Source: Algoriphagus locisalis
GTDB lineage: Bacteria; Bacteroidota; Bacteroidia; Cytophagales; Cyclobacteriaceae
Length of the DNA stretch: 64,000 nucleotides
Reading direction: 5' to 3'
Assembly (NCBI RefSeq): GCF_900116615.1
Contig: NZ_FPBF01000001.1
Coordinates: 62,001 to 126,000 of the forward strand
This document shows positions 5,037 to 24,690 of the stretch, piece by piece. Below the pieces are notes generated by a model, which worked only from the letters and a program-made list of their open reading frames with translations, ran no database searches and was not told where the DNA came from. A program made the translations under genes and the position numbers. Numbering within the stretch: the stretch's first letter is position 1; every line of letters begins with the position of its first letter.

Positions 5037-5056
5037 CAACCATAAAAACTCACGCC

Positions 5057-7405: not shown

Positions 7406-7470
7406 CCAGAAAGGGGCTTAATCAGGAGCCTACCTAGCGACATTTTCTCATTTAATCATGCTTTCTGATT

Positions 7471-7478
7471 TAATTTTG
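7471..7478 (+). promoter_or_regulatory. -7 promoter element (TAATTTTG) of the HExxH protein gene
   Basis: TAATTTTG fits the TAnnTTTG consensus and ends 29 bases before the ATG at 7508. An upstream GTG at 7478 overlaps the element and is therefore unlikely to be the translation start. Confidence 0.45.
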
Positions 7479-7507
7479 TGGTTATACACCCCGAATCACC
7501 CTTCTAT

Positions 7508-8425: not shown

Positions 8426-8671
8426 CTGTTATGATAAAGTGCTGATCTTCAGTTGTTTTATTGGGTTTTTTGGGAAGTAGGTTTGCAATGATGGCAGGTG
8501 ATAAAAGTGAAAGGAAATGAAATTGGGATACTGATATGAAAGCCGATCTATGTAATAGTCAACGGGCGACAATCGGTATAATTCCTTATTGGTTAGACAA
8601 CTTCACCGTATGAGTTTATTTGATCAGGAAACTGTTCTGGGCTAAGACCTTGGAGTTCTTAATCCATGGAA

Positions 8672-10015
8672 TCACTTCACCAATCCCTGACTGTCTGCTC
8701 TAAACATTCTACTGCTTACATAGAAATCTTTCCCCGTAGGCGACTTGAAGTAATACGCAATGTAGAATGCCTTCTGCCCTTTTTGGGGCAGTGAAATTTC
8801 ATTCTCGGAATTGTATTCCAGCGCCTTTGACTTCCATTTTTCATCCCTGAAATCCTTGTCTTCTACTGATTCAGCTTCCCAGATTTCCACTTTTAACGGG
8901 GGCTCGGATGCCTTCAATTGAATGACTAGCTTATTGTGTTTTGGAGAAGCAAATGTGGTAAAAACTTCAGGAAGAGACTTTGCCGCATTCTGATAGGCTA
9001 CAAAGGCATCTAAGGCCTGAAAAGCTATTTTTCCATCTCCCAGATCATGCCCGACATTGGGAATATAGATCAGGTTATTCTGTCCAGGAATGCTGTCGAT
9101 GTAGTTTTTAACCGCATCCACAGGCCAGTATGGATCATTTGTCCCGATAAATATCAACTTGGGGACAGTCAGCTTTGCGCGGTAAGAATAGGGATCGACC
9201 ATCTCCATTGTTGCCTGTCCCATGGCACTGCTTGCCTGTTGGGGAATGCCCAAATCTACGTAATCCTGAATCTCAGGACTGTAATCTGCCCAGGTCTCAA
9301 TCTGATATTGAAGACTCGTTGGCATATTCAGTACATCGATCACCATAGGGGCAATGGCGGTTACCCTTGGGTCTTGTGATCCTGTGAGCCAGGTAGTCCA
9401 GCCTCTTTTGGAGAGTCCGGTGAGTGTAAATGTGTGCACTGGAAAATCCAAAAACCTTTTGCTAAAATCTGAGACAGCATCCATGGCGGATACCGCTGAT
9501 CTGACCATGGGAAACAATGCCGGCCATTCTAAGTCCCCTGTCTGCTGAAACTGATGAAGGGTATAGGAAATAATCTCATCTTCTGTCTTTCCATCAAAAA
9601 TGGGTTGGTTGGGCACCTGAAATACAAGGGCTACTAAGCTTTGGTTTTCAGTTGCAATTCTTTGCATATTCTCCACAATAGCATTGTCACGTTCACGCAT
9701 GACAGGAATACCATTTTCTGTTTTACCACCTCCAATATAAAGCAGGACTTTGTCAGAACTGAGTTGTGCGGGTTTTAGGATCACCAGGCGGTGTTTCCAG
9801 ATCATGCCCTTCCATTCCTGTGAGGTAAGTTCCAGCTCGTATTGGGTGATTCCTTGATGCAGGATGCTGTCTTTGATTTCAAAATCGAATGCTGGATTGT
9901 CTTTTGCCAGAAAATCAGACAAGGGAGTTTTGGTGCTTTGAGCCTGTACGGGCTTCGATGTAATCACCAGCACTAAGAGTGCCAGGACATTAAGAATAAT
10001 TCTTTTCATCTTCAT
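8672..10015 (-). CDS. PhoPQ-activated pathogenicity-related (PqaA-type) hydrolase
   Basis: A 447-residue exported protein matching the PhoPQ-activated pathogenicity-related family (PF10142, from memory). It starts with a signal peptide (IILNVLALLVLVITSKPVQAQ). The alpha/beta-hydrolase core includes VLLYIGGGKTENG, the nucleophile-like GLSKRGWTTWLTG, MVIDVLNMP, FIGTNDPYWPVDAVKNY and GHDLGDGK, the last probably carrying the catalytic His. The C-terminal ~90 residues form an extra beta domain. The cellular role of this family is poorly known. It is divergent from the phosphatase operon starting at 10143, with 127 bases between starts. Confidence 0.9.
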   Translation of the reverse strand: MKMKRIILNVLALLVLVITSKPVQAQSTKTPLSDFLAKDNPAFDFEIKDSILHQGITQYELELTSQEWKGMIWKHRLVILKPAQLSSDKVLLYIGGGKTENGIPVMRERDNAIVENMQRIATENQSLVALVFQVPNQPIFDGKTEDEIISYTLHQFQQTGDLEWPALFPMVRSAVSAMDAVSDFSKRFLDFPVHTFTLTGLSKRGWTTWLTGSQDPRVTAIAPMVIDVLNMPTSLQYQIETWADYSPEIQDYVDLGIPQQASSAMGQATMEMVDPYSYRAKLTVPKLIFIGTNDPYWPVDAVKNYIDSIPGQNNLIYIPNVGHDLGDGKIAFQALDAFVAYQNAAKSLPEVFTTFASPKHNKLVIQLKASEPPLKVEIWEAESVEDKDFRDEKWKSKALEYNSENEISLPQKGQKAFYIAYYFKSPTGKDFYVSSRMFRADSQGLVK

Positions 10016-10142
10016 ATAAAGTTAACATGAATCAATGGCCTGAACGTAGGCTATTGAAGTCTTTAGTATGAACAAAAGCTATCGTGAAAATCAACACTCA
10101 AAGCTAAGTAAAACTTAGGAAATAGCTATTAAAAAATTGATA

Positions 10143-11465
10143 ATGAGTAAATTAAGTGTCCTAAAACGACTGTTTTTGGTGACGGCTCTGGTATGCCCAA
10201 CGCTGTCTTATTCCCAGAATACATCATCTCTAAATCCTAATTCGTACCTTCTGCCAAGTCCAAGGCCGGACCGGATTATCCTGAATCTATCTGAAAATCC
10301 TTTGAAGGCAATCCATGTGAACTGGCGTACCGATACCACGCGGGTTATTTCTCATCTGGAAGTTGCCCAGGCTACTGCCGGACCTGAATTCCGGGATAAG
10401 ACGACACAGCTTAAGGCAGTGACCGAAACCCTCGTTTCCCAACAGGATGAGGAGCCAACCATACATGCCAACTACCATCAGGTAAAATTGACTGGATTGA
10501 AGGCTGGAACCAGTTATGTGTACCGGGTGGGTGGGGGCGAATTCTGGTCTGAATGGTTCCAGTTTACCATTCCTGAAGACGATAAGGAAGTGAATTTTCT
10601 GTATTTCGGTGACGTGCAAAATGAGGTGGTAGCGATGTTCAGCCGGGTTTTTCGTGAAGCAGTCATCAACTTGCCCAAAATGGATTTTACGGTGTATGCA
10701 GGTGATCTGGTCAACCATGAAAGTGCAGATTTTGAATGGGGCGGGTGGTTTGGAGCCGGGCAATGGATCCACGCCAGTATCCCTTCTATGATGACTCCAG
10801 GCAATCATGAGTTTTCCAAAAATCCTGCTACCCTTACCCCACACTGGAATGCCCAGTTCAACTTGCCTACCAACGGGCCCAAAGGACTGGAGGAGACTAC
10901 CTATGAAGTAAATTTCCCGGAGCTCAAAATCATTTCACTCGATGGAGAGCAGATCGATGAATCCCCGGAGTACAGAAAAGCACAGATGGATTGGTTGAGA
11001 GCAGTCCTGACTGATAATCCCCGGAAATGGACTGTGATCACGTTTCATTATCCGGTATATGCCACTCACCCAAATCGATACCACGATAAGATGATCGATT
11101 ATATCCGGCCGATTTTACAGGAGTTCAAGGTGGATCTGGCAATACAGGGGCATGACCATGCCTATGCCCGGGGCAGGGCTTTTGATGAAAAGGGGAAGTT
11201 GGATTACGGAAAAGGTACCGTCTATGTGGTATCCGTGGGCGGGCCGAAAATGTATGAGGTCAAAACAGATGAGTGGATGGAGCGAAAAGCTTACGGCACC
11301 CAGACCTATCAGTGGATCAAGGTAAAGGATAATATACTCAGCTTTAAAACCTACACTGCGCTTGGTGAACTATATGATTCCTTTGAGATTCATAAAAATC
11401 CCCAAGGCGAAAATACCCTTGTTAACAACATTCCCAGCTCCCCAGAAAGACTTCAGAAGAAATGA
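10143..11465 (+). CDS. Purple acid phosphatase-like metallophosphoesterase
   Basis: A 440-residue exported phosphoesterase. After a signal peptide (LFLVTALVCPTLSYSQ) comes a fibronectin-III-like domain (residues ~41-143, HVNWRTDTT...TSYVYRVGGG). A calcineurin-like catalytic domain follows with all five metal-binding blocks: FGDVQNE (D157), YAGDLVNHE (D188, N191), TPGNHEFS (N221, H222), TFHYPVY (H302) and IQGHDHAYARG (H337, H339). Members hydrolyse phosphomonoesters with a two-metal centre. The stop overlaps the start of the glycerophosphodiesterase gene by 4 bases, so the two are co-translated. The ATG at 10143 is preferred over a TTG two codons upstream. Confidence 0.92.
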   Translation: MSKLSVLKRLFLVTALVCPTLSYSQNTSSLNPNSYLLPSPRPDRIILNLSENPLKAIHVNWRTDTTRVISHLEVAQATAGPEFRDKTTQLKAVTETLVSQQDEEPTIHANYHQVKLTGLKAGTSYVYRVGGGEFWSEWFQFTIPEDDKEVNFLYFGDVQNEVVAMFSRVFREAVINLPKMDFTVYAGDLVNHESADFEWGGWFGAGQWIHASIPSMMTPGNHEFSKNPATLTPHWNAQFNLPTNGPKGLEETTYEVNFPELKIISLDGEQIDESPEYRKAQMDWLRAVLTDNPRKWTVITFHYPVYATHPNRYHDKMIDYIRPILQEFKVDLAIQGHDHAYARGRAFDEKGKLDYGKGTVYVVSVGGPKMYEVKTDEWMERKAYGTQTYQWIKVKDNILSFKTYTALGELYDSFEIHKNPQGENTLVNNIPSSPERLQKK

Positions 11466-12316
11466 AAAATAAGACAAATACCCCCGTAATTGTGAGTAGA
11501 GTTGTACTGACTGTACTCTTATTATTTTTTGCAGCCCTAGATGCATTTTCACAGGTTGAGCAAATCCGGGATAAACTGCTGAATACAGATGAACTACTGG
11601 TCGTAGCACACCGTTCGGCACATCATAGCTACCCCGAAAATAGCCTTCAAGCCATACAGGAAGCGATAGATCTGGGAGTGGATCTAGTCGAAATCGACGT
11701 CCGGGTAACCACAGACGGCATTGTATATCTGATGCATGACCAGACCATAGACCGAACGACCACGGGCTCAGGGGACATAGAAAAAATGAGCAGCGCTGAG
11801 CTCCAGAATGTGACCTTGGTTTTAGAAGGTAAAGATTCCGGATTAGCTATCCCCACACTAGCCGAAGCGCTGGCTTTGACCAAGGGTAAAATCATGGTGG
11901 ATTTGGATATGAAAACTGATAAAGTAGAGGAAGTGATGACAGTGGTAAAAGAAATGGATGTGCTGGATGAAGTCATTTTTTTTGATTCGGAATGGCAAGT
12001 CCTAGGGGAAATAAGAGCCAAGCTACCAGAAGCGTTCTTGATGCCCAGACTATACAAAACCAATGAAATAAGAAAGGCTTACAGAAAGCTGGCTCCTGTG
12101 GTTGTCCATATTGACCCGGGATTCAATACACCTAAAACTATGCTTAAGGCGCAAAAATTCGGACTACGGACCTGGATCAATTCTTTGGGATCACTGGATG
12201 ATGAACTTCGGGTAAATCCCCATTCGCCACTATCACAGAAGCTGCTAGAATATGGTGCATCCATGGTTCAGACAGACCTGCCGGAACTTTGGGTTAAGCT
12301 CAGGGATGAAAGGTAA
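11462..12316 (+). CDS. Exported glycerophosphodiester phosphodiesterase
   Basis: A 284-residue GDPD-family enzyme that releases sn-glycerol 3-phosphate and an alcohol from glycerophosphodiesters. The N-terminus is a signal peptide (VVLTVLLLFFAALDAFSQ), so it acts outside the cytoplasm. Catalytic and metal residues are visible: AHRSAHHSYPEN (H50, R51, E59), LVEIDVRVTTDG (E77, D79) and LMHDQTIDRTT (H92). The C-terminal TDLPELW is typical. It overlaps the purple-acid-phosphatase-like gene by 4 bases, and the two enzymes could act in series on phospholipid head groups. Confidence 0.94.
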   Translation: MKNKTNTPVIVSRVVLTVLLLFFAALDAFSQVEQIRDKLLNTDELLVVAHRSAHHSYPENSLQAIQEAIDLGVDLVEIDVRVTTDGIVYLMHDQTIDRTTTGSGDIEKMSSAELQNVTLVLEGKDSGLAIPTLAEALALTKGKIMVDLDMKTDKVEEVMTVVKEMDVLDEVIFFDSEWQVLGEIRAKLPEAFLMPRLYKTNEIRKAYRKLAPVVVHIDPGFNTPKTMLKAQKFGLRTWINSLGSLDDELRVNPHSPLSQKLLEYGASMVQTDLPELWVKLRDER

Positions 12317-12432
12317 CCGTAGGCTTGAAAAAAAGGAAGTAGTCTTGCCATCTTGTTTACTTCACCCATTCTTAATACTGGCTTAAATACTTTGGGTAGG
12401 ATATTCGATAAATTCGGTTTTAAGTCAAACCC

Positions 12433-12999
12433 ATGAAATCTATACTATTTGGAAGGTCCCATCGCATAGAAGTCATTGACGAAAAGTCTTTTTCCAAGCT
12501 TTATGAAAAGTTTTGGAATGCTGCCGTGGAGTTGGTGATAAAGCTGGTAAAGGATAGGGAGGAAGCGGAGAATATTGCACAGGATGTCTTCATCCAGCTT
12601 TGGGAAAAGAGAGACAATCTTCATAAGATCGATGATGTACAGAACTTCCTGTTTATATGCCTGAGGAATAAAGCCTTTGACCGGCTTAAAGAACTTAAGA
12701 AAACCGAGCAGGGAACCGAAGAACTCTGGCAGAAAATCCAGGATCAACCCCATGAAAAAGATAGCCTAGAGCAGCAGGGGTTGAATTTTGAAAAGCTGGA
12801 AAAAGCCCTATCCGAATTGTCTGAACACAAGCAGCGAATCGTAACCCTGAAATACGGTAAAAACCAATCCTATGATGAAATTGCAGAGACATTAAATATC
12901 TCTGCCAATACCGTCAAAAACCACCTGGTTCAGATCAAAAAACGACTTCGGTCAGAATTGGTCAACGGTCTGATACTGATGTTTTACTTTTTATTTTGA
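12433..12999 (+). CDS. ECF RNA polymerase sigma factor (Bacteroidetes sigma-70 family 1 type)
   Basis: A 188-residue extracytoplasmic-function sigma factor. Region 2 covers residues ~22-90 (LVKDREEAENIAQDVFIQLWEKR and VQNFLFICLRNKAFDRLKE). Region 4 covers ~125-178 (LKYGKNQSYDEIAETLNISANTVKNHL). This type normally pairs with a FecR anti-sigma factor and a SusC transducer carrying an STN domain. Both partners are present here, but on the opposite strand 5.6 kb away, with the SusC/SusD genes between. The sigma gene converges on susD. A TACTTTGGGT stretch at 12388-12397 may be its own -7 region. Confidence 0.93.
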   Translation: MKSILFGRSHRIEVIDEKSFSKLYEKFWNAAVELVIKLVKDREEAENIAQDVFIQLWEKRDNLHKIDDVQNFLFICLRNKAFDRLKELKKTEQGTEELWQKIQDQPHEKDSLEQQGLNFEKLEKALSELSEHKQRIVTLKYGKNQSYDEIAETLNISANTVKNHLVQIKKRLRSELVNGLILMFYFLF

Positions 13000-13155
13000 G
13001 CGTTACGCTTCTTTAATTTTCAATTTTTTAGTCTTCCGCGACTATCCCGTGATAGTTTCTTGCGAATGCAAGCAGGGTTTAGTGAACATTTATTCTCCAA
13101 TCCTTTTTAGTGCGCTTTGTGGGTTTCTTTAGCCCTTTAAGAGCTAAGTTTCAAG

Positions 13156-13194
13156 AAAAAAAACAGGCTGCACCCAAGGGAATGGGGCAGCCTG
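13156..13194 (-). terminator. Terminator of the fecR-susC-susD operon
   Basis: CAGGCTGC (13164-13171) pairs with GCAGCCTG (13187-13194), with further CCC/GGG pairing inside. On the minus strand the stem is followed by eight T residues (13163-13156). It lies ~57 bases past the susD stop. Confidence 0.85.
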
Positions 13195-13250
13195 TGCTTT
13201 GTCAAATAGACTCGAATATTACCCGGAAACCATAAATCCGGGCAATGGGC

Positions 13251-14891
13251 TTACCATGGTTTTCCGGTGCCCTGTAGCAACCAGAACTTGGACCATGCAC
13301 TGTTTTTGTCATCAGCTTGGGAAAACTGGGTAGTTTCCAGGCGGCTTACTGCTTCATTGGCATTTTTCTCATTGATGGTCAATTCATCCTGCATGTAATA
13401 AAAGCGGATGGGAAGAACACTTCTTACTGCTGCGGGTCCTGCCACTAGCTCTGGATAGCCCGTTCTTCTATAGTCAAACCAGGATTCTGTGGAAGCTGTC
13501 CACGCTGCAATCCATTTTTGGGTCATGACCTGCTCCAGACTATTGTTAAAAGCAGCTTCTCCAGTGATGTATTCTTCAAAATCATTTTCCAAGTCCCAGG
13601 CCTCAAAGGATGCTTTTACACCGGCTTCATAATGATCTTTTGCAGATCCTGCATTCACCAATCCGGATAGCGTAGCTTCAGCTAAAATGAAGTGAACTTC
13701 GGCCGCACTCAGCAGTCTAGCCTTCAGTAATGGTCCTGAAGGAGCAGTGTATCGTTCATTGATAAAGGATACGTGGGGATTGTAAGATTGCTGTCCCGGA
13801 GTGGGATTGAGGTTGTACTCACTTGGTATATTGGAAACTGCAGGTGGAATGCCTACATACTCAGGGTCGGTGTCCACTGTTTTTTCTGCAGCTATATCGG
13901 CATCTATGTATCGCTTTCCGTTTATGATTTCATCTGTACCGGCAGGTAAGCTCTCATCTAGGACGATCGGCACCTGTACTTTTTCAGCCCATACTGAAAT
14001 TCTGTTGTCATTCAGGGATTGGAGCACCTCTACCAATGTTGCACACATTTTTATCCTGCGGTAATTGCTGCCATTGGAACCGTCAAATTCTGTATTGGAA
14101 GGCCAGGAATTGGCTGAAGTGCCACCTGGGAAAGCGATGGCCGCATCATCCGAAGCAACCGTAATGATTGGGTAGCGAGACGCATCATTCAGGATTTCCT
14201 GCATTCCCTGACTGGCCATCTCTGGCATTTTCTCGGATATCCTCAGGTAAAGTCTCAAGCGGAGAGAATTGGCAAATTGTCTCCACTTCAGCACATTTCC
14301 TCCAAAAAGGATATCCTGAGGAGTAGCCTCAAATGTGCCTAAGGCTGCCAGCAGGTCATTCGCCTCTTTTAGTTCGGCAATCACTCCTTCATAGATCTCT
14401 TGCTGTGAGTCAAAGGCAGGCAGGAGAAATTGTTCCCCTCCCTGATCTCCACTTACCGCGTCCGCATAAGGGGCATCACCCCATAAGTCCGCAATTCTGG
14501 CAAAGTGGTAGGCATCCATCACTTTTGCTACCCCCACATAAAAGGGAAGTTCCAAAGCTTCAGCCCGCTGTTCCATCATTTTGATGTCTTCTAGGATGCT
14601 GTAGTTGGCAGTCCAGCTCTGGTTACTCCATTCATAATTGTTATGACCTGTAAACCATGCATCTTTTTGCGTATGCTGCATTACTCCCGCTATATCTCCA
14701 AAACCCAGATTCACCTCTGAGGTAGCGGTGTTGGAAAGAATGGTAGTCAGCAAAAGGTTGGGGTGCACAGCCGTGGATTCCACCCCGTTTGGATTGATAT
14801 TGGTTTCTGTCAAATCCACGCATGCTGTCATGGATCCTGAGAGGATTAATCCTATAGCAAAAGCATTGATATGTTTGATGTGTTTTTTCAT
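13251..14891 (-). CDS. SusD/RagB-family outer-membrane lipoprotein (SusD-like type 2)
   Basis: A 546-residue surface lipoprotein. The start at 14891 gives a proper lipoprotein signal (FAIGLILSGSMTAC, Cys24), whereas a longer frame would overlap the susC end. The mature part (NINPNG, then PNLLLTTILSNTA, RIADLWGDAPYADA, WRQFANSLRLRLYLRISEKMP) resembles the SusD-like 2 subgroup (PF12771, from memory). SusD proteins bind ligand and form the lid of the SusC transporter. It ends the fecR-susC-susD operon, 37 bases after susC, and is followed by a strong terminator. Neighbouring secreted phosphatases suggest a phosphorylated ligand; the protein itself gives no proof. Confidence 0.92.
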   Translation of the reverse strand: MKKHIKHINAFAIGLILSGSMTACVDLTETNINPNGVESTAVHPNLLLTTILSNTATSEVNLGFGDIAGVMQHTQKDAWFTGHNNYEWSNQSWTANYSILEDIKMMEQRAEALELPFYVGVAKVMDAYHFARIADLWGDAPYADAVSGDQGGEQFLLPAFDSQQEIYEGVIAELKEANDLLAALGTFEATPQDILFGGNVLKWRQFANSLRLRLYLRISEKMPEMASQGMQEILNDASRYPIITVASDDAAIAFPGGTSANSWPSNTEFDGSNGSNYRRIKMCATLVEVLQSLNDNRISVWAEKVQVPIVLDESLPAGTDEIINGKRYIDADIAAEKTVDTDPEYVGIPPAVSNIPSEYNLNPTPGQQSYNPHVSFINERYTAPSGPLLKARLLSAAEVHFILAEATLSGLVNAGSAKDHYEAGVKASFEAWDLENDFEEYITGEAAFNNSLEQVMTQKWIAAWTASTESWFDYRRTGYPELVAGPAAVRSVLPIRFYYMQDELTINEKNANEAVSRLETTQFSQADDKNSAWSKFWLLQGTGKPW

Positions 14892-14928
14892 TTTAGGAAT
14901 TATCTGATGTCCAAAATAGTCTCGTTGA

Positions 14929-17900
14929 TTAGAAAGATGCATTGATTTTAAATCCTACCGGGATGACCCAAGGATTGACATTGTACCGCTCTATCCCCTG
15001 TTTGAAAGTTCCGTTTGCTTCCGGCTGAAATGCATTTTCGGGATCGATTCCTACTTTTGCTTTCGTCCATAGAATTAGGTTACTGGTGTACACGCCCACA
15101 TTGATGGACTTCATTTTCAGTTTATTGACCAAATCCACTGGTAACTGATAAGAAATGGCAGCTTCCCGTAACTTGATGTAGGAAGCATCGAAGGTGGCCG
15201 GTTTGAAGAAGCTCCAAGGATAGTTGTCTGCATAGGGGATGTATTTGGTGTTTTCTCCGCCTAGATTCTCAGTGTAGCCAGTAATGTTCCCCTCCTCATC
15301 GTACTGGGCGATGACGCCTGGGTTAAATACCCCATCGTTTACTGTGACATTGTAATCGAAGGGAAAACCGCCGCTTTCTGCAGTAGGTCCGCCCACTACA
15401 TTCAGGCCATCGGTGATAAACTGATCCTGGTTGTCCACTAAATAGTCCCGAAGGGCATCACCTGAAAGTCCGTTTGGATTGATGATCTGATCCAGCCAAC
15501 GTTGGGTTTTGAGATCGGATTCAGAATATCGGAAAGTCTGGGATACGAAATCCCCACCCATTCTCATATCAAAATTTAAGCTTAGGGAAAAGCGCTTATA
15601 GCTCATGTTTACCTGCATACCGGCTAAGAAATCCGGGTTGAAATTCCCGATTTTATTTTTGGCAGAGGCCTGGTTTATCGCTTGCCAGCTTCCATCTTCA
15701 TCCAGAATAGGATATCCAAAGTAAGGGGATTCCCTATCTTCTACCGTCACTAATCCCCGGTCATAAATGTCCCCGATCTCATCGCCTACATAAGTCCAAG
15801 CCCCACCACGTGAGTCTGACCATAGGTAGAATACATCGACTTCATCTGTCAGCTCTACGATCCGGCTCCGGTATTTGGAGTAGTTAAAGTTCAGATCCAG
15901 GGTGAAATCCGTCGTTTTCACTGGGGTAAATCCCAGCATTACTTCCCAGCCTTTGCTGTTTACCAGTCCGGCATTGACAAACTTGGAGGTAAAGCCGGAA
16001 GAGGATGGCAAGGTGACAGGAAGGATCTGGTTTTTATTGTCTGTATTAAAGTAGGTCAGATCAAACCGCAGGCGGTTTTGGAGAGCAGCCATTTCCAGCC
16101 CAAGTTCATAGGATGTGGAAATTTCAGGTTTAAGGTCTGGTGTTTTAAGGTTGTCCGGTACGGTCAGTCGGGTTTGGCTGTCCCATTCCCCGTTATTGGC
16201 AAGAACCTGATAGAGATTGTATGGATCTGTATCGTTACCTACCTGGGCCCAGCCGGCTCTTAATTTCAGCAGGTCTATGGAACTGCCCATATCCAGCATT
16301 TCATTCAGGATCAAGCTGAGTGAGGCAGAAGGATAGAAGTAGGACCTATTGGCTTCCGGCAAGGTAGAGGACCAGTCATTTCTTGCAGTTACATCCAAGT
16401 AAATCAAATCCCGGAAACCAAAGTTTGCCAGCCCGTAAATACTGTTCACGGCTTTTTCTGAAATGGATGAATTGTAAATCAGGTTGTCTGCTGAAGTATT
16501 ACTCAGGGTATATACACCGGGTACGATCAGTCCCGAACCCTCTGCCTTGGTAGAATTCTGCACTGCATGGTTGCGGTTGAATCTCAGGTTTCCCCCGGTG
16601 GAAAGTGTCATGTGGAAATTATCATAATCCTTGGTGTAGGTGGCAAGGATGTCGGCATTTCTTTCCGTTCTGTCCAGGTTGATGAGGCCATATCCTCCAT
16701 TGGGATCTGCAGTATAGCTTATCGGGATTTTGGATTCTCTCCGCTCTGAATACATGTCCAGCATATAGCTGGCTTTTACCTTAAAATTCTCTGTGAACTG
16801 GTATTCCAGCCCCAGGTTGCCAAATATCCTGTTTCTTTTGAAACTGTTGTTTACTTCGTAGGCAAGAAAGTAGGGGTTGTCATAATCGCCAATAGCCTGG
16901 GAGCGCTGCTGGATTCCTTCCTGCCCGGGTACCCAGTAGGATTGAAGCTCGTTGATATCGATGTGCGGAGACACTTTATAGGCAGCTTCCAGTGGGTTGG
17001 CACCTCTGTTTCCCGCAGGACGGTTGTCAGATCCTGTCTGGTTGATATTGATGCTTGAGCTCAGGGTCAGCTTAGGGTCAATTCTTAAAGTTGTATTGAC
17101 CGATAGGTTGTCCCTGCCAAAATCTGAATTGGGTATGATGCCCCAATTACTCAGATTGGTGTATCCGATTCGATAGTTGATGAATTCATTGTTGTTTGCC
17201 ACAGATACTCCATTGGTAGTGGTGACACCTGTGCGTACAAAATCTGATACATTATTCGGATGGGAGACTAAGGGAGTGGGGATTCGGTTCCCATTGGCAT
17301 CCAAGGGGCTGTTCCACTGAATGGCTTCATATCCTTTGTCCAATTCCGGTCCTGCACCTGCCGAAGAACCTTCTTCTATGACCAATTGGCCTCCTGGGTA
17401 GGGATTGTTGTCCGGTGTGTAAGGCCGTACTCCGGTAGCAAACCTACTATGGAATGGCAAATACTTGTAGGGGATTTCCAGTAGGGTATTGGAGGAAACA
17501 CTCACCGTTACCTCATTTACTTTTCTACCTGATTTGGTGGTGATCAATACGACCCCATTTCCCGCCCTGGAGCCATACAGTGCGGCTGCACTTGGGCCTT
17601 TTAGGATAGACATGCTTTCTATATCCTCCGGATTCAAATCAGAAATGGCATTGCCGTAATCTACTTTGTTGTCTGCACCGATTTCTGACACGTTGTTTAG
17701 CGTGTTGATAATCGGAACTCCATCTACAACGAATAAGGGCTGATTATCCCCGCTCAACGAGGAGATTCCCCGGATGATCATACTAACAGAGGAACCTGCC
17801 CCACCGGTGGAATTGACACTCACACCTGGAACCCGACCGGCGATTGAGCGTAAGGCATTGTCCTGGCTTCCGTTTTGGAAGGCGTTTTCACCTACTTCTG

Positions 17901-18555
17901 CAACAGAATAGCCCAGGGAGCGTTCATCTCGTTCTATTCCCAACGCAGTGACTACCACACCTTCCATATCGGCAAAGGAGGAAAGTAAGACTACTTTGAT
18001 ATAAGATTGGTTTTGGACTACAACTTCCTGAGATTCGAATCCTATGTAGCTGAACACCAATACGGCTTCATTGGAAGGAACATCAATGCTAAAGGTGCCG
18101 TCTATACCCGTCACTACTCCAGAGGTACTTCCTTTGATCAGCACGGTAGCGCCGACTAAGGGCTGGTTGTCTTCATCCAAGACCAGTCCTGTGATCGGGA
18201 TAGCTGCACGCGTTTGTTGTGATTTTCTGATCAGAATATTCTCTCCGGTTATTTTGAATTGAAAGGGAGTGAAGGTTTCTGCAGTTTTCAGATGCTGCTG
18301 GACAGTAGCTTTAGGGCTTACTTTTATTTGTTGTCCCAAAAGTTCATGAACCCCATCTGCATAGATGAATTTGAATTCGCTCTGGGTTTCAATTTCCGTG
18401 ATAAATTCCCTTAGACTCAGCTTGGTCTGATGCATTTCTATTATTCTTTCACTGCGGTGCAGCCCCGCTTCAGCCCAGTGGGGCAGGAATAGGAGCAGCA
18501 ATAACCATAGGCTGCGTGGTGGCAAAGGATTTTTTTTAGTAAATGTAATTTCCAT
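14929..18555 (-). CDS. SusC/RagA-family TonB transporter with STN signalling domain
   Basis: A 1208-residue outer-membrane TonB-dependent transporter. Order of parts: signal peptide (~10-30, SLWLLLLLFLPHWAEA), STN domain (~45-110, LSLREFITEIETQSEFKFIY), carboxypeptidase-regulatory-like domain (~118-200, ITGLVLDEDNQPLVGATVLI), plug (~205-340, with GVSVNSTGGAGSSVSMIIRG and ILKGPSAAALYGSRAGNGVV) and a long barrel ending in SF. The STN domain means that the protein also passes a signal to the FecR anti-sigma factor encoded just upstream (93-base gap). Substrate is unknown; the locus suggests an organophosphate. Confidence 0.96.
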   Translation of the reverse strand: MEITFTKKNPLPPRSLWLLLLLFLPHWAEAGLHRSERIIEMHQTKLSLREFITEIETQSEFKFIYADGVHELLGQQIKVSPKATVQQHLKTAETFTPFQFKITGENILIRKSQQTRAAIPITGLVLDEDNQPLVGATVLIKGSTSGVVTGIDGTFSIDVPSNEAVLVFSYIGFESQEVVVQNQSYIKVVLLSSFADMEGVVVTALGIERDERSLGYSVAEVGENAFQNGSQDNALRSIAGRVPGVSVNSTGGAGSSVSMIIRGISSLSGDNQPLFVVDGVPIINTLNNVSEIGADNKVDYGNAISDLNPEDIESMSILKGPSAAALYGSRAGNGVVLITTKSGRKVNEVTVSVSSNTLLEIPYKYLPFHSRFATGVRPYTPDNNPYPGGQLVIEEGSSAGAGPELDKGYEAIQWNSPLDANGNRIPTPLVSHPNNVSDFVRTGVTTTNGVSVANNNEFINYRIGYTNLSNWGIIPNSDFGRDNLSVNTTLRIDPKLTLSSSININQTGSDNRPAGNRGANPLEAAYKVSPHIDINELQSYWVPGQEGIQQRSQAIGDYDNPYFLAYEVNNSFKRNRIFGNLGLEYQFTENFKVKASYMLDMYSERRESKIPISYTADPNGGYGLINLDRTERNADILATYTKDYDNFHMTLSTGGNLRFNRNHAVQNSTKAEGSGLIVPGVYTLSNTSADNLIYNSSISEKAVNSIYGLANFGFRDLIYLDVTARNDWSSTLPEANRSYFYPSASLSLILNEMLDMGSSIDLLKLRAGWAQVGNDTDPYNLYQVLANNGEWDSQTRLTVPDNLKTPDLKPEISTSYELGLEMAALQNRLRFDLTYFNTDNKNQILPVTLPSSSGFTSKFVNAGLVNSKGWEVMLGFTPVKTTDFTLDLNFNYSKYRSRIVELTDEVDVFYLWSDSRGGAWTYVGDEIGDIYDRGLVTVEDRESPYFGYPILDEDGSWQAINQASAKNKIGNFNPDFLAGMQVNMSYKRFSLSLNFDMRMGGDFVSQTFRYSESDLKTQRWLDQIINPNGLSGDALRDYLVDNQDQFITDGLNVVGGPTAESGGFPFDYNVTVNDGVFNPGVIAQYDEEGNITGYTENLGGENTKYIPYADNYPWSFFKPATFDASYIKLREAAISYQLPVDLVNKLKMKSINVGVYTSNLILWTKAKVGIDPENAFQPEANGTFKQGIERYNVNPWVIPVGFKINASF

Positions 18556-18647
18556 ACTTTGTGTGTGTTTAAGTGGTGTACTACTTGATCATACTGCCAC
18601 GCTGGAGGTCTTCGTCAAATTCTCTCCGGTGTGGTTTTTCTTTTGGT

Positions 18648-19601
18648 TCACTGGGGGTTATGTATTTTGATAGATGCTGTGATTTCAGTTTCTCTATTGG
18701 TCAGGTATCCTATGGATTGGATTACATCTTCCAGGCTTTTGTTTTTAAACTGACCGGTGATTTTAATTTGATAAAGACTCGAATCGGTCACGGCTAAATC
18801 TGCGTCGTACCATCTTTCCAGGGAATGGATTACCTGAGAGAAATCCGTCTGGCTGAAATGCAATACTTTTTCCCTCCAGAACACAGGATCCTCAGAATCC
18901 CGGACTGAATAGCTTTGGGAGGTTTTATCTAGGGTAAGCAGCTGTCCTTGGGTAAGCTTTTCTACTATTTCCTCACTTGCTTGAAGAAAGGAAACTTTTA
19001 CAGTCCCTTCTGTGACAGCAATCGCTATGGAGTTGTCTTCCGAATAAGAATTGACATTGAAGGCCGTGCCTATAACCAGAATGTTAATGTCTTGGGTCTG
19101 GATTTCAAAGGGATGGATTTTGTCTTTAGCTACTTGGAAGAAAGCCTCACCTTCTAACCTTACCGCTCGTTTGACCTGATTCTCAAAAGGAAATTGCTCC
19201 AGTTTGGAGGCTACATTCAGGCTTACTTCAGATCCGTCAGGCAAGGTAAGATTGCGTTGCTCTCCTTGCGCAGTTTGGTAGGATATCACTTCCTGTTGGC
19301 TGGAGTTCTGAAGGAAATTAAAGATCGCAACTCCCATACAAATCAAAAGAATCACGGTTGCCGCAATTTTGGGATAGTTGGCAACAAAAGTCTTCTCCGC
19401 TTTGGGCTTTTGTGTGACAGTTGGCTCAGGATAAGCTTTGGCGATTGTTTTTTCAAAATTTGATTTTAGTACTTCAGAATAGACCTGACTAACAGCTTTA
19501 TCGTCCAATCCTGTCAGGAATTGATCAAACTCAGTTTTGCTCATAGTCCCCTCCAGATAGTTCTCTACCAGTAGTTTGATCTCTTTTTTTGACCGATCCA
19601 T
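18648..19601 (-). CDS. FecR-family anti-sigma factor
   Basis: A 317-residue inner-membrane anti-sigma regulator. The cytoplasmic N-part (1-77) should hold the ECF sigma factor. A single transmembrane helix lies at ~78-97 (KIAATVILLICMGVAIFNFL). The FecR domain spans ~108-205 (TLPDGSEVSLNVASKLEQFP, VRLEGEAFFQVAKD, FNVNSYSEDNSIAIAVTEG). A C-terminal domain of DUF4974 type at ~240-310 (FSQVIHSLERWYDADLAV) contacts the STN domain of SusC. It is the first gene of the fecR-susC-susD operon. No sigma gene is adjacent on its 5' side, which is unusual; the likely partner is the sigma gene at 12433. Confidence 0.94.
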   Translation of the reverse strand: MDRSKKEIKLLVENYLEGTMSKTEFDQFLTGLDDKAVSQVYSEVLKSNFEKTIAKAYPEPTVTQKPKAEKTFVANYPKIAATVILLICMGVAIFNFLQNSSQQEVISYQTAQGEQRNLTLPDGSEVSLNVASKLEQFPFENQVKRAVRLEGEAFFQVAKDKIHPFEIQTQDINILVIGTAFNVNSYSEDNSIAIAVTEGTVKVSFLQASEEIVEKLTQGQLLTLDKTSQSYSVRDSEDPVFWREKVLHFSQTDFSQVIHSLERWYDADLAVTDSSLYQIKITGQFKNKSLEDVIQSIGYLTNRETEITASIKIHNPQ

Positions 19602-19883
19602 TATTACTTGCCTAATTAGAATTCAGCAGTTATCCTGCCTATGTTTTATATTCTAATGACTTGAGAATGGTAAAAGGGACTAGTCTTATCGCATTATCAA
19701 AAAGTTAAAGATTTGTGAAGCGGATTTCAGGAAGAGGAATGTGAAAACCCTATTTTGGGGCTACTATAGGCAGGGAAAACCGGCTATCCCATTTCACAAA
19801 AGGGTAATGTTTGATTCATGGTAAGAATAAGTAGGTAATCTAATATTGCACAAATCTTAAAAATCAATCAGAAAGCTATACAT

Positions 19884-21287
19884 ATGATTAGGAAGCAACA
19901 GCAAGACACACCTGGAAGAAGGTCATTTTTGAAAAACTCAGTAATGGTCAGTATAGGCTTCATGGGACTTAGGTCTTTTGGTGCATCTGCCTTTGCAGGA
20001 AATATTCCCTCAGTTTATGACCAATACGGCCCGCTGCTGCCAGATCCAAAAGGTATTTTCAATCTTCCCAAAGGCTTTTCCTATAAAATCATATCCAGAT
20101 CGGGAGAACTGATGGATGACGGATTCGTGTCTCCAGGACGTAATGATGCCATGGCAGCCTTCAGTGCCAAAGACGGGAAAGTCTGGGTTATCAGAAATCA
20201 CGAAATCTCATCCGATGATCCGGAAAATGGGCCATTTGGATTGGATAATTCCAAGCTTCAGGAGCTGGCCGAATCTGATATTTATGATCGGGGCTTTGGC
20301 AAGAATCCGAGTTTGGGAGGCACTACAACGTTTTTGTTCAATGAGGATACTCAGGAAATGGAATACCAGTACCTCTCATTAGCCGGGACGATCAGGAATT
20401 GTGCTGGTGGCCCCACTCCCTGGAATTCCTGGCTTACCTGTGAAGAGACTTTTGACAGCAAGTTGGAAGGAGTCAATGAACATAATCATGGGTACGTGTT
20501 TGAAGTGCCTCTGTCTGATCAAGCGGTTTTGGCTGAGCCAGTGCCAATAAAGGCGATGGGGAGATTTAACCATGAAGCAGTAGCAGTGGACCCGGACAGT
20601 GGCTTTGTGTATCTCACCGAAGATCGGGGGGATGGACTTATTTACCGGTTTATCCCAAGAGAGCAGGGGAATTTTCGGGCAGGAGGAAAGCTTCAGGCAC
20701 TCAGTATTAAAGGTCAAAAAGGATTTGATACAAGAAACTGGGATTTGCAGACAATGAGCACAGGGAATAAGCTTGAAGTGGAATGGATAGACCTGGAAAA
20801 TACGGATCCAGAGGAAGACGATCTGAGATTAAGAGGCTTTGATCAGGGGGCAGCACGGTTTGCCAGGGGAGAAGGCATGTGGTATGGAAATGATGAAGTG
20901 TATTTTGCCTGTACCAATGGAGGGAAAGCCAAGCAGGGTCAGGTGTTTCGGTACATTGCCTCTGGAAAGGAGAAAATGGGTAATGAAAAAGCAGGAGGAC
21001 ACCTGGAGCTTTTTGCCGAACCTAATGATAAAAATATCTTAAGAGCCTGTGATAACCTGACTGTAGCGCCTTGGGGAGATGTGATCCTTTGCGAGGATAA
21101 TTCTGATCCACGGTTGGTCGGGATTACGCCAAAAGGTGAAATCTATCACCTCGGCCTGAATGTAGGTTACAAATCCGAGTTGACTGGCGCATGTTTTTCC
21201 CCAAGTGGTAAAACCCTGTTTGTTAACATCCAACATGCGGGGCTTACTTTGGCGATTACAGGGCCTTGGCAGGCTAGCCGAGCTTAA
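19884..21287 (+). CDS. PhoX-like (DUF839) phosphatase with Tat signal
   Basis: A 467-residue protein of the DUF839/PhoX family, whose characterised members are secreted Ca/Fe alkaline phosphatases. The N-terminus carries a twin-arginine signal (GRRSFLKNS with R12 and R13, then a hydrophobic stretch), so it is exported folded with its metal cofactor. The body shows GGTTTFLF, CAGGPTPWNSWLTCEET, GRFNHEAVAVDP, YLTEDRGDGLIYRFIP and ILRACDNLTVAPWGDVILCEDN, all typical of the PhoX beta-propeller. It is divergent from fecR (282 bases between starts), on the same strand as a second phosphoesterase. Phosphatase activity is inferred from the family. Confidence 0.88.
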   Translation: MIRKQQQDTPGRRSFLKNSVMVSIGFMGLRSFGASAFAGNIPSVYDQYGPLLPDPKGIFNLPKGFSYKIISRSGELMDDGFVSPGRNDAMAAFSAKDGKVWVIRNHEISSDDPENGPFGLDNSKLQELAESDIYDRGFGKNPSLGGTTTFLFNEDTQEMEYQYLSLAGTIRNCAGGPTPWNSWLTCEETFDSKLEGVNEHNHGYVFEVPLSDQAVLAEPVPIKAMGRFNHEAVAVDPDSGFVYLTEDRGDGLIYRFIPREQGNFRAGGKLQALSIKGQKGFDTRNWDLQTMSTGNKLEVEWIDLENTDPEEDDLRLRGFDQGAARFARGEGMWYGNDEVYFACTNGGKAKQGQVFRYIASGKEKMGNEKAGGHLELFAEPNDKNILRACDNLTVAPWGDVILCEDNSDPRLVGITPKGEIYHLGLNVGYKSELTGACFSPSGKTLFVNIQHAGLTLAITGPWQASRA

Positions 21288-21310
21288 TTTTTCTAGTTGG
21301 GATAAGGCTA

Positions 21311-21352
21311 GTGTAACTACTATGAATTCTCTAGTAGTTGCACTGCTTTCTT
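21311..21352 (+). terminator. Hairpin after the PhoX-like gene
   Basis: GTGTAACTACTA (21311-21322) pairs at 11 of 12 positions with TAGTAGTTGCAC (21332-21343). The sequence after it (TGCTTTCTT) is only moderately T-rich. It is probably a weak terminator or an attenuator between the two phosphoesterase genes, 35 bases before the next start. Confidence 0.5.
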
Positions 21353-21386
21353 AAAAGTTTTCCATTACTCATTTCTATCCGGTTTC

Positions 21387-22379
21387 ATGCTATATAAAAT
21401 AGCTTCCTTCCTACTTTTAACCGTATTCTTCAACACAGCTCTGGCGCAGAATAAACCCATACTTTCCTTCAATGCTGGTGGAGATTTTAAAATTGTTCAG
21501 TTTACAGATACACATATAGATATTCCAGGGAATAAAAATAGGGATGTCTTTGAAATAGTAAGGGGCATTATTTTAGAAGAAAGACCCGATCTGGTTGTAT
21601 TGACCGGCGATGTAGTGACCCAGGATGACCCCATTCAGGCATATCAGTTGTTTGAAGATCTTTTTGCAGAATTTAGTATTCCTTGGGTCGTTGCTTTTGG
21701 TAACCATGATTCCCAGCATAATGCCAGTAGAGTAGAAATTGCCAACTTTCTGGCTGAATTTCCTCATTGCCTCAATGCCGACAAAGAAGAGACATATGGT
21801 AATTCAAATTTTGTGTTGACGATTGCCGGAGAGGAATCCAAAGAGGAAGCGCTGATCTATATCATGGATTCCAACAGCAACAGTACCTTACAGCCACAAG
21901 TAGGAGGATATGGATGGTTTGACTTTTCACAAGTACAGTGGTATAGGGAAAAGAGTAAGGGATTTACTGAGGTTAACAGGGGAAATCCTTTGCCGGCGCT
22001 GGCATTTTTTCATATTCCGCTGCCAGAATATGCACAAGCCTGGAGCAATGAAACCAATCCAGCCATAGGTGTAAAAAATGAGGAGGAATGTAGCCCGGAA
22101 ATAAATACGGGTATGTTTGCAGCCATGCTGGAAGCCGGAGATGTCATGGGTACTTTTGTAGGCCATGACCATATCAACGATTACATAGGGGTACACCATG
22201 GCATTGCATTAGCCTACGGCCGGGTGACCAAAATGATGAAAAACTTAGAGGAGGATCCATTGGCAGGAGGAAGAGTGATTGTGATAAAAGAAGGTAAGCG
22301 GGAATTTGAAACATGGATACGGGATATGAATGGATTGAAGGAGCTTGAAGTCAAATGGCCTAATTCATTTGTGAACTGA
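21387..22379 (+). CDS. Exported calcineurin-like metallophosphoesterase
   Basis: A 330-residue phosphoesterase with a signal peptide (KIASFLLLTVFFNTALAQ). Metal-binding blocks are VQFTDTHID (D41, H43), VVLTGDVVTQD (D75), AFGNHDSQ (N106, H107), FFHIPLPE and FVGHDHINDY. The arrangement resembles the phosphohydrolase/DevT-like group also found in fungal phosphatases. It follows the PhoX-like phosphatase by 99 bases with a hairpin between them. It is the last member of the phosphorus-themed block. Natural substrate unknown. Confidence 0.9.
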   Translation: MLYKIASFLLLTVFFNTALAQNKPILSFNAGGDFKIVQFTDTHIDIPGNKNRDVFEIVRGIILEERPDLVVLTGDVVTQDDPIQAYQLFEDLFAEFSIPWVVAFGNHDSQHNASRVEIANFLAEFPHCLNADKEETYGNSNFVLTIAGEESKEEALIYIMDSNSNSTLQPQVGGYGWFDFSQVQWYREKSKGFTEVNRGNPLPALAFFHIPLPEYAQAWSNETNPAIGVKNEEECSPEINTGMFAAMLEAGDVMGTFVGHDHINDYIGVHHGIALAYGRVTKMMKNLEEDPLAGGRVIVIKEGKREFETWIRDMNGLKELEVKWPNSFVN

Positions 22380-22639
22380 GTAAATCACCCTTTATCCAGC
22401 CCCGTCCAGGACGTTTCATTTTAAGATTCCCTGGCTAAGAATTTAACGCATGAGCAAAGGTTTTAATTGAATGGCATCAGATAATACCTCATCAAGGCTA
22501 TAGCCCTTGTTCCCCTAATAGCCTGTCCCAATGTTAAGTTTTTGCTTTAAATGAAAACTTAATATTAACAATAGGGGTCATATCTATACATTTACATCAT
22601 AGTAAATTAACAATGAGGTACTTTTAATCAAGTAATAAA

Positions 22640-23029
22640 ATGGTAGAAAATAACAATTCGGGGACTAAGGATCAGGGTAGCAATAAAGAATCTGATCTGG
22701 CAGGTACTGCTCAGAAAACTAGTTCTAGTGCACCTGATAAAACAATAAAGGGAGAAGTGGAAGGAGAAATAGCGAAGGTTCAAAGCACGGATAAATCAGA
22801 AAAAAGTGCCAAAGATCTAAAGGGATCAAAGAAGCAGCTAGACAAAGCCAAGAAAAAAGAGAAAACCGAGAAAAAAGGCAAAGACAAGGACAAAAAGAAG
22901 GAGAAGGATAAGAAAGCCAAGAAAAAAGCAGCGAAAAAGAAAAAGCTGAAAGCCAAAAAGGAGAAAGCGCAAAAGAAGCTGAAGGAAAAAAAGGCCAAGA
23001 AAAAAGCTGCTCAAAAAAAGAAGAAGTAG
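22640..23029 (+). CDS. Small lysine-rich protein with a histone-H1-like tail
   Basis: A 129-residue protein of two parts. The first ~55 residues are polar and low in hydrophobics (NNNSGTKDQGSNKESDLAG). The rest is almost only K with A, E, D and L (for example KAKKKAAKKKKLKAKKEKAQ). No membrane segment or signal is present. Such tails bind nucleic acid or polyphosphate in other proteins, and the pattern resembles bacterial histone-H1-like proteins; this is inference from composition alone. It has its own terminator at 23052, so it is a single-gene unit. The repetitive coding sequence could also evolve quickly by slippage. Confidence 0.65.
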   Translation: MVENNNSGTKDQGSNKESDLAGTAQKTSSSAPDKTIKGEVEGEIAKVQSTDKSEKSAKDLKGSKKQLDKAKKKEKTEKKGKDKDKKKEKDKKAKKKAAKKKKLKAKKEKAQKKLKEKKAKKKAAQKKKK

Positions 23030-23051
23030 CCTTAAGCCGGATAATTTTAGG

Positions 23052-23084
23052 AAAATCGAAACGTTGTGTTTCGATTTTTTTTTA
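23052..23084 (+). terminator. Terminator of the lysine-rich gene
   Basis: AAAATCGAAAC (23052-23062) pairs perfectly with GTTTCGATTTT (23068-23078) around a 5-base loop and runs into a T9 tract. It lies 23 bases after the stop. Confidence 0.88.
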
Positions 23085-23148
23085 TCTAACAGAAGATTAA
23101 CATAGGCTTAGCCTATTCTATTTCAGTGGGGTTTACTTTCGGGGGTAA

Positions 23149-24690
23149 ATGATCCCCCTCAAACTTGAATCTTGGATGCTATTGGCCTTTGGCTTATTCA
23201 CTGCCTTTTGGGGCTTGGATTCCTTTAGTATTTATATTTTAGATGAAGCCAAAAATGCGGAAGCAGCCAGGGAAATGTGGGAAAATGCTTCCTGGTTTTT
23301 TCCTACCTTCAATGGGGAACCCCGATACGATAAGCCACCTTTGCACTATTTTTTCTTTGGTATTGCATACAAGTTATTTGGGGTGAACGCATTTGCTGCC
23401 AGGTTCTTTCCAGCATTGGCGGGTTGGGTCTGCGGTCTTTTGATTTTCTTCCGAGTTCGGGAGCGATTTGGGGAAAAGGAAGCGGGTTGGGCTTATGTCG
23501 GGTTGATTGCCTCTTTGCAATGGGGCATTCAGTTTCGTTTGGCTGTTCCGGATCCTTTTTTGATTTTATTTCTTACCGCTTGTATTTTGAAACTGGAGGC
23601 TTTTTTCCAAGACGAGCAACATCCCAAAAAGCACCTGCGTCTGGCATCTGTTTATCTGGCGTTGGCTTTTTTAAGCAAAGGGCCTGTAGCATTGGTGTTA
23701 GTAGCAGGGACAGGTCTGGGGTACCTACTTTTGCAGCGCAAATCCCCACAATCCCTTTGGAAAAGGATGCTGGATCCCATGTCGGTTTTGTTATTCTGCG
23801 GGATTGCCTTGCCCTGGTATTTTTTGGTTTACTATCATTATGGAGGTGAGTGGCTCAGTCAGTTTGTTTTTAAACACAATATTTCCAGGTTTTCCCAACC
23901 CATGGAGGGACATGGTGGGCCTTTTTATTTGCCATTTTTGTTCGCACTTGGCGGTTTTTTTCCTGCTTCCCTGTTCTTGTTTTTACCATGGAGGGGACGT
24001 TTCAGAAAGTTGACTTCTCAACCGCTCCTTCTGATTTCTCTGGTATATATTGGGATCACGTTATGCTTTTTCTCGCTATCCAGCACCAAACTGCCAGGTT
24101 ATATAGCTCCTGCATTTCCATTTATGGCAGTGCTGTTGGGATGGCAGGTTAAAGGAATCAAGAAACTTAAGGGGGTTTTCGTCACTAATCTACTGATAGG
24201 AGTTATGCTGATGGCCGTTCCAGTTGTGATCTTTTTTGGCAGGGATCTACAGTTGCTCTATTTGGGAGAAGAACTTTCGGTACCCCTGTTTGCGCTACTT
24301 TTGGCTTTTGTTTTAGGTGCATTCCTCTGGCGTCAAAACCCTTGGCGAAGCTTCCTTTCTTTGGCTTTGGGGTATGGGGTGTTAAGACTTTTACTTTTCA
24401 CAGAGATCCTTCCATTGCTAGACCGACAGAATCCAGTCGTGCTCTCCATGCCTTACCTGGAAACTAGCGAAGAGGTGGTTTATTGGGGAAGTTTCAATCC
24501 CGCCTTTCCACTTCAACTGCAGAAAACAATCCCCGCCTGGGTCCCAGATGAAAATAGTGACGCTATCATCATCACGGATGCGAAGCATTTAGAATCATTT
24601 CCTGCTCAATTTCAGGAGATTTTCAGGGCGAAGGATCCTTTTGAAAACAAGGAAACAGTCCTGATCAGGCAGATGCCCGTCTTGCCGTAA
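23149..24690 (+). CDS. ArnT-like/GT39-family membrane glycosyltransferase
   Basis: A 513-residue polytopic inner-membrane protein of the PMT/ArnT glycosyltransferase group, which moves a sugar from a polyprenyl-phosphate donor to lipid or protein in the periplasm. The first periplasmic loop carries the conserved acidic pair (ILDEAKNAEAAREMW, D32/E33) followed by FNGEPRYDKPPLHYFF. About eleven hydrophobic segments follow. The last ~90 residues form a soluble domain. Its 3' end overlaps by 26 bases with the oppositely oriented PAP2 gene. ArnT releases polyprenyl phosphate, so a PAP2 neighbour makes sense. Acceptor unknown; lipid A is the best-known one for the family. Confidence 0.87.
   Translation: MIPLKLESWMLLAFGLFTAFWGLDSFSIYILDEAKNAEAAREMWENASWFFPTFNGEPRYDKPPLHYFFFGIAYKLFGVNAFAARFFPALAGWVCGLLIFFRVRERFGEKEAGWAYVGLIASLQWGIQFRLAVPDPFLILFLTACILKLEAFFQDEQHPKKHLRLASVYLALAFLSKGPVALVLVAGTGLGYLLLQRKSPQSLWKRMLDPMSVLLFCGIALPWYFLVYYHYGGEWLSQFVFKHNISRFSQPMEGHGGPFYLPFLFALGGFFPASLFLFLPWRGRFRKLTSQPLLLISLVYIGITLCFFSLSSTKLPGYIAPAFPFMAVLLGWQVKGIKKLKGVFVTNLLIGVMLMAVPVVIFFGRDLQLLYLGEELSVPLFALLLAFVLGAFLWRQNPWRSFLSLALGYGVLRLLLFTEILPLLDRQNPVVLSMPYLETSEEVVYWGSFNPAFPLQLQKTIPAWVPDENSDAIIITDAKHLESFPAQFQEIFRAKDPFENKETVLIRQMPVLP

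Follow-up and report, generated by a model that had tools for sequence, protein, structure and literature searches.

A SusC/SusD locus of Algoriphagus locisalis with phosphoester hydrolases and sigma-factor signaling genes resembles the phosphate utilization systems of Flavobacterium

Phosphorus-linked SusC/SusD (SusCD) loci have been published in Flavobacterium as phosphate utilization systems (PUS, PusCD; PMC8115612) and are also mentioned elsewhere (PMC8812569). Some PUS loci contain Metallophos enzymes, an extracytoplasmic function (ECF) sigma factor, and FecR. In F. johnsoniae, PUSI combines SusCD with an ECF sigma factor and 2 enzymes, one of pf00149 and one of pf16670; PUSII contains SusCD, a FecR-like gene, and the phosphatase PhoA1, its PusC being listed with pf16344; and PUSIII has both ECF sigma and FecR genes. 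Depletion of inorganic phosphate (Pi) raises the transcripts of the PUSI ECF gene, the PUSII FecR gene, and both PUSIII regulators, and PusD is called polyphyletic, with different Pfam domains (PMC8115612). We analyzed a 64,000-nucleotide stretch of the Algoriphagus locisalis genome (contig NZ_FPBF01000001.1, positions 62,001–126,000; hereafter the window, to which coordinates refer unless a contig or stretch is named), which carries at 8672–22379 a unit of 9 genes combining SusCD with phosphoester hydrolases and a sigma/FecR pair. The best reading of this unit is a variant of the PUS (PusCD) kind that differs in the family of its receptor and in its set of enzymes and serves a phosphodiester, and we consider it fairly probable that it imports an organic phosphodiester across the outer membrane in a PUS-like manner, with the phosphate stripped in the cell envelope.

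Families were assigned with Pfam and NCBIfam. A SusC TonB-dependent transporter with an N-terminal STN domain (14929–18555, minus strand; TIGR04056, 611 bits, cut-off 368) and a SusD lipoprotein (13251–14942, minus strand; PF12771 SusD-like_2, 257 bits, cut-off 27) lie next to each other on one strand and form a SusC/SusD (RagA/RagB) pair. The SusD protein, which also matches PF12741 and has homologues among solved SusD structures, likely starts at the internal Met of MKKHIKH and has a lipobox-like SGSMTAC, found by eye. Upstream on the minus strand is the gene of the FecR anti-sigma factor (18648–19601; PF04773 and PF16344). On the other side of susD are an exported, alpha/beta-hydrolase-type PF10142 protein (PhoPQ_related; 8672–10015, minus strand; 330 bits) and, on the plus strand, a metallophosphoesterase resembling purple acid phosphatases (PAP; 10143–11465; Pfam PAP N-domain and Metallophos), a GDPD-family glycerophosphodiester phosphodiesterase (11462–12316; 90.6 bits), and an ECF sigma factor like Bacteroidota TIGR02985 (12433–12999). 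A Tat-exported PhoX-like phosphatase (19884–21287; PF05787, 273 bits) and a Metallophos protein (21387–22379; PF00149, 57 bits), both on the plus strand, complete the unit. Sec leaders were recognized by eye in the PAP-like, GDPD, and last Metallophos proteins. A first-pass annotation had placed its genes at these positions and in families that Pfam and NCBIfam bear out; its range (10143–22379) missed the fifth hydrolase, PF10142, and its 4 phosphoesterases of 4 different families are indeed 4 in number but not all distinct, because 2 share Metallophos (PF00149).

Both in the window and in the closest relative found (G705), SusCD thus occurs with phosphomono- and phosphodiesterases instead of carbohydrate-active enzymes (CAZymes), the gene content by which PUS are defined (PMC8115612); several related loci do carry CAZymes. 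Pfam recognized no glycoside hydrolase among the 10 proteins scanned at 7478–22379, and the window locus does not show the combination of CAZymes with SusCD of a polysaccharide utilization locus (PUL). PUSI (Fjoh_4168, 4169, and 4171–4173) likewise has SusCD and an ECF sigma factor, and its 2 exported phosphodiesterases, one listed under pf00149 (Metallophos), are predicted to cleave in the periplasm. It differs in its PusD1, which is pf07980/pf14322 whereas the window SusD is PF12771, and in its second enzyme, which is pf16670 (PI-PLC-like) rather than GDPD. Moreover, PF10142 does not appear in the parts of PMC8115612 consulted, and induction by Pi depletion was shown for PUSI. PUSII (Fjoh_3249–3252) resembles the locus in its SusCD, its FecR-like regulator, its PusC with pf16344, and a GDPD-related domain (pf13653) on PhoA1, but has PhoA in place of PAP and GDPD and a PusD2 of other Pfam families (PMC8115612). 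The window SusD therefore falls outside pf07980 and pf14322, a comparison that covers PusD1 and PusD2 and is not strict because PusD is polyphyletic. If our reading is true, SusCD-based organophosphate uptake, published in Flavobacterium, extends to PF12771 SusD proteins and to the Cyclobacteriaceae, and the little-characterized PF10142/S82 hydrolases gain a testable nutritional context. Elsewhere in the A. locisalis genome, contig C6 518481–534881 (L097; L numbers denote individual stretches) has 2 SusCD pairs flanking a Ca2+-dependent phosphatidylinositol-specific phospholipase C (PF16670) and a Metallophos-matching frame of 611 amino acids, and resembles F. johnsoniae PUSI.

In G705 (SusD 93% identical), all 9 genes are kept in order and orientation, and the DNA is about 84% identical over 8669–22361. 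Among the matches listed, none longer than 150 bases falls in 5000–8668, and to the right of the locus, a 72% match covers 22528–23219. Among named species, the closest relative found is Algoriphagus aquimarinus (L009; L141 is apparently the same contig), with a SusD 76% identical and the order fecR-susC-susD followed by PF10142, PAP, GDPD, and sigma, the latter 4 genes forming a block that is inverted between this species and the window. The locus is uncommon in the genus, because only 5 of 72 genomes, the source counted, have a SusD match with an E-value of 1e-150 or lower, 2 of these being only 47–48% identical. We clustered the genes of 64 stretches around SusD relatives and of a further 20, most of which surround PF10142 genes, and named the clusters by scanning 1 or 2 members of each against the family libraries; L010 and L011 were left out because their contigs equal those of L060 and L061 in length and content. 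The wider SusD set comprises 68 loci including the window, after removal of the refetched duplicates L083–L085, and these are not independent: several come from one genus, some from one genome, and some are cut by contig ends.

Within the immediate SusD clade (9 rows, support 100/100), PF10142, PAP, and GDPD genes are all within 10 kb in 6 of the 9 loci, and the 3 remaining genomes have PF10142 and PAP (2 of them also GDPD) together at another place (L075, L079, and L080). Across the 68 loci, a PAP-family gene (counting longer relatives of about 590 amino acids) is within 10 kb in 24, GDPD in 16, PF10142 in 15, and all 3 in 10. PAP directly follows susD in 12 loci, including Chitinophaga skermanii (L012) and Pedobacter steynii (L013) of other families, and L129, from another family of the class, reads sigma-fecR-susC-susD-PAP-GDPD. 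Of the neighboring genes, only those for PF10142, the PAP-like enzyme, and GDPD are found again next to this SusCD in relatives beyond G705. PF10142 genes in our sample of the bacterial family fall into 2 score groups, one of 318–382 bits that includes the window's (36 genes) and one above 390 bits (62 genes). At least 21 of the 36 are within 16 kb of a listed SusD match of at least 40% identity, whereas none of the 62 is so placed among the listed SusD matches, one being about 12.5 kb from a 36% match; these distances, like those for PhoX and Metallophos genes below, were compared by eye among the SusD matches listed. The link between SusCD and phosphoester hydrolysis made by the first-pass annotation is thus borne out by the PAP-like and GDPD genes, also by PAP after susD in L012, L013, and L129; as a rule for related genomes, it holds in the immediate clade, but in the wider set only 29 of 68 loci have a PAP-family or GDPD gene at that distance of 10 kb.

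The other 2 phosphoesterases behave differently. The PhoX-like protein has the leader RRSFLKNS (by eye) and the PF05787 match expected of a Tat-exported PhoX alkaline phosphatase, and its stretch NCA-G-TPW...TCEE aligns with PhoX 4amf, the cofactor-ligand comparison covering that stretch. Its gene is next to this SusCD only in the window and in G705. The family sample includes, in 66 genomes other than this one, 67 near-full-length relatives (51–62% identity), none of them within 40 kb of a listed SusD match of at least 40% identity. Of the 20 of these PhoX contexts that were read, 6 (L111, L112, L113, L115, L116, and L117) contain a different SusCD pair, with a SusD about 30–32% identical to the window's (29% in L116), and phosphonate-catabolism genes: all 6 include one from the HpnW (TIGR03364) cluster, and 5 include one from the (R)-1-hydroxy-2-aminoethylphosphonate ammonia-lyase cluster, each cluster being named from 1 or 2 scanned members. 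The other 14 contexts have no match to the window SusC or SusD within 8 kb. As for the last Metallophos protein, G705 has a 76% copy in place, and none of its 7 further homologues of at least 41% identity in 295 family genomes is within 20 kb of a listed SusD match. Neither gene is in the A. aquimarinus locus. PhoX and the last Metallophos gene are therefore lineage-specific neighbors outside the conserved unit, and of the 4 enzymes grouped at first only the PAP-like and GDPD proteins belong to it. Gene neighborhood can thus mislead: 2 of the 4 enzymes that prompted this analysis are lineage-specific, and an overlooked fifth recurs.

A SusCD locus of organophosphonate type from the same bacterial family (L111–L113, L115–L117, and a copy on contig C5 35942–49830 of A. 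locisalis) is the other system that invites comparison. It also has phosphoesterases alongside, its SusD in the A. locisalis copy is likewise PF12771, and it holds the window's PhoX group in the 6 contexts above; it differs in its SusD, only about 30–32% identical, and in its HpnW, PbfA, PhnX-like, HpnZ-like, and DUF5690 genes. The contig C5 copy, left of the window, is a second SusCD pair (SusD-like_2) without PhoX, accompanied by HpnW (TIGR03364), a Metallophos protein, and PhnX-like, HpnZ-like, and DUF5690-cluster genes (L095 13943–18750; L096 2342–7930), and is likely an organophosphonate SusCD locus. In relatives, this type of locus also has PhoX and (R)-1-hydroxy-2-aminoethylphosphonate ammonia-lyase.

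The conserved enzymes keep their active-site motifs. Classical purple acid phosphatases have a Tyr ligand in a GDxxY motif. In the PAP-like enzyme, the metal-site residues GD, GD, GNH, H, and GHxH are kept in 46 or 47 of the 47 aligned proteins (one Gly in 45), and Asn takes the place of the GDxxY Tyr in 40 of the 47, the window's included. Because of this replacement, the enzyme is, judged by its alignment, not a classical purple acid phosphatase. The GDPD protein aligns with solved GDPDs over the HR, EN, EID, and HD motifs (best 3i10, E-value 1.1e-32). Every one of 34 aligned PF10142 members has the Ser202, Asp294, and His323 of the window protein, and these residues probably form the catalytic triad; a structure model of that protein was too poor to be used (mean predicted local distance difference test (pLDDT) score 62.5). 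PF10142 corresponds to peptidase family S82, which is 'barely characterized' (PMC11878206). As judged by eye, the leaders of all 4 phosphoesterases are plain Sec or Tat leaders that lack a lipobox, so that cleavage in the periplasm after import would be likelier than the cleavage at the cell surface proposed earlier.

We therefore propose the following route for the PUS-like reading. Surface-exposed SusD would capture a phospho-compound, and SusC would import it with TonB energy. The STN domain may let SusC report its occupancy to FecR and the ECF sigma factor, and expression would increase. Once the compound is in the periplasm, PF10142 might remove an ester- or amide-linked group, which is the least certain enzyme step because S82 is so little characterized. 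GDPD would then cut the phosphodiester, this place and order of cleavage being predicted, and the PAP-like enzyme, in this lineage together with PhoX, would free phosphate from the resulting monoester.

The regulatory genes have the composition of a cell-surface signaling system, with an STN domain on the transporter and neighboring FecR and ECF sigma genes. The sigma factor scores 123.3 bits against TIGR02985, slightly below the cut-off of 126.4, and its A. aquimarinus counterpart (58% identity) also lies directly after GDPD. The STN domain spans SusC residues about 36–115. A model of residues 36–120 built from 3 sequences (mean pLDDT 83.7) gave as its best fold matches the signaling domains of FecA, PupA, PupR, FpvA, FoxA, and a Parabacteroides anti-sigma factor. 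All Foldseek E-values were 0.001 or higher, and the fold assignment relies on which proteins rank highest. SusC length follows the presence of FecR: of 18 loci whose fetched stretch includes a FecR gene, 15 have a SusC of 1202–1254 amino acids, whereas no SusC exceeds 1174 in the 52 loci lacking one, some of these being cut by stretch ends (this count kept the refetched duplicates L084 and L085). One of the 3 exceptions is L030, where FecR goes with a second SusC. An alignment of 22 SusC proteins shows the N-terminal STN segment in 9 of the 10 that have FecR in their stretch and in none of the 12 others. Because SusC carries the STN domain, a sigma/FecR/STN-SusC circuit is well supported as a model, and SusC proteins of ECF-controlled PULs are known to have STN domains (PMC7782687).

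The circuit agrees with the sigma-factor control first proposed, but the accompanying claim that the substrate, not phosphate starvation, is the signal is not supported, because ECF sigma and/or FecR transcripts of F. johnsoniae PUSI, PUSII, and PUSIII rise on Pi depletion (PMC8115612). The same transcripts are the argument for an ordinary Pho-regulon PUS locus, in which phosphate starvation would be the inducer and sigma/FecR would act as a secondary amplifier. Such control would be compatible with the import mechanism set out above, and we regard it as a serious possibility that nevertheless falls short of even chances; counting against it, PusD1 and PusD2 are pf07980/pf14322 (PMC8115612), as opposed to the PF12771 of the window SusD.

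Several observations weigh against a locus dedicated to phosphodiesters. A PAP-family or GDPD gene is within 10 kb in only 29 of the 68 loci, and in 10 loci susD is followed by a DUF6340 gene with all of these hydrolases absent; therefore, this SusCD type is not phosphate-specific by descent. Outside the window, 15 PAP-like contexts include a SusD of this set only in L129, and most show nothing related, the second PAP-like gene of A. locisalis (L122) included. Window-group PF10142 genes also occur without this SusD in the stretches read (L076–L078, and with PAP in L086 and L087), and FecR lies just before a shorter SusC in L012 and L013 (1088 and 1156 amino acids). No gene for cytoplasmic catabolism or for transport across the inner membrane was recognized within the unit. 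Finally, related loci carry glycosidases, and the nutrient could be mainly a glycan.

This last point leads to a glycoconjugate locus, in which SusCD would import an amino-sugar glycan or glycolipid head group bearing phosphodiester and acyl groups (such as a teichoic-acid-like polymer or the head group of glycosylphosphatidylinositol (GPI) or glycosyl-inositol-phosphoceramide), the phosphoesterases would be accessory de-capping enzymes, and the Algoriphagus locus would be a reduced form. Within 10 kb in the 68 loci are BNR sialidase-like (21), ceramidase-like (18), ROK (13), YdjC (7), GH20 (5), and NagX-like (4) genes, each family named from one representative per cluster, and GH92 and GH31 occur in some related loci. 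PAP-GDPD genes without SusCD stand beside GH20, NagX-like, ROK, YdjC, and BNR genes in L121, and partly in L118 and L124, which makes 3 of the 15 PAP contexts outside the window. However, none of these genes is labeled in the window or in A. aquimarinus (G705 was compared for the window's own genes only), glycosidases are common in SusCD loci, the BNR family is generic, and the matches are low for ceramidase (23.4 bits, Pfam cut-off 32.1) and NagX (206.8, NCBIfam cut-off 480). We consider the glycoconjugate locus unlikely. A family of 744 amino acids (L055 15466–17700 and 22 further copies or fragments) recurs beside these SusCD loci; its representative has no Pfam, NCBIfam, or PDB sequence match, and its only weak, partial matches in the source genome count against a glycoconjugate locus there. 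A membrane-protein-like family of about 430 amino acids without any match (L034 1197–2495 and 15 further copies) neighbors the BNR sialidase-like gene in several loci.

More speculatively, and with slightly less conviction still, SusD, PAP, GDPD, and PF10142 might form a modular system for such phosphodiester-bearing amino-sugar glycoconjugates (teichoic-acid-like polymers, or the head groups of GPI or glycosyl-inositol-phosphoceramide) in which PF10142/S82 would carry out de-acylation. The phosphoester core would then be what Algoriphagus has kept, and the glycan arm (GH20, GH92, YdjC, NagX-like, ROK, and ceramidase-like) what other Cyclobacteriaceae have kept. In this genome, a simple glycerophosphodiester or lysophospholipid is at least as likely a substrate.

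The genome background bears on whether the neighborhood exceeds chance. Across its 5.42 Mb, the source genome yields 16 matches to Metallophos and 3 to GDPD, besides single PhoX and PF10142 genes. It contains 47 SusD loci, recognized by PF07980 and PF12771; genes of these kinds occur within 10 kb of 7 of them, the window's included, and nowhere but at the window locus is there more than one. That a SusCD operon of unrelated function simply landed among phosphoesterase genes is improbable: PhoX and the last Metallophos gene are indeed lineage-specific, 39 of the 68 loci lack both PAP and GDPD within 10 kb, and 6 of the 46 other SusD loci of the genome also have one phosphoesterase at that distance, but several genera show PAP, GDPD, and PF10142 next to this SusCD in varied orders and orientations, PAP follows susD in other families too, and the contrast between PF10142 groups (at least 21 of 36 near listed SusD matches against 0 of 62) speaks for a real association.

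Other features of the window were also recorded. Downstream of the locus, at 22640–23029, is an extremely lysine-rich open frame of 129 amino acids, and the 72% DNA match to G705 spans this stretch. At 31153–32109, a single protein matches both RhuM (PF13310) and Fic/DOC (PF02661), and at 47423–51786, another SusC/SusD-type pair lies between alcohol dehydrogenase-like and S15 peptidase-like genes.

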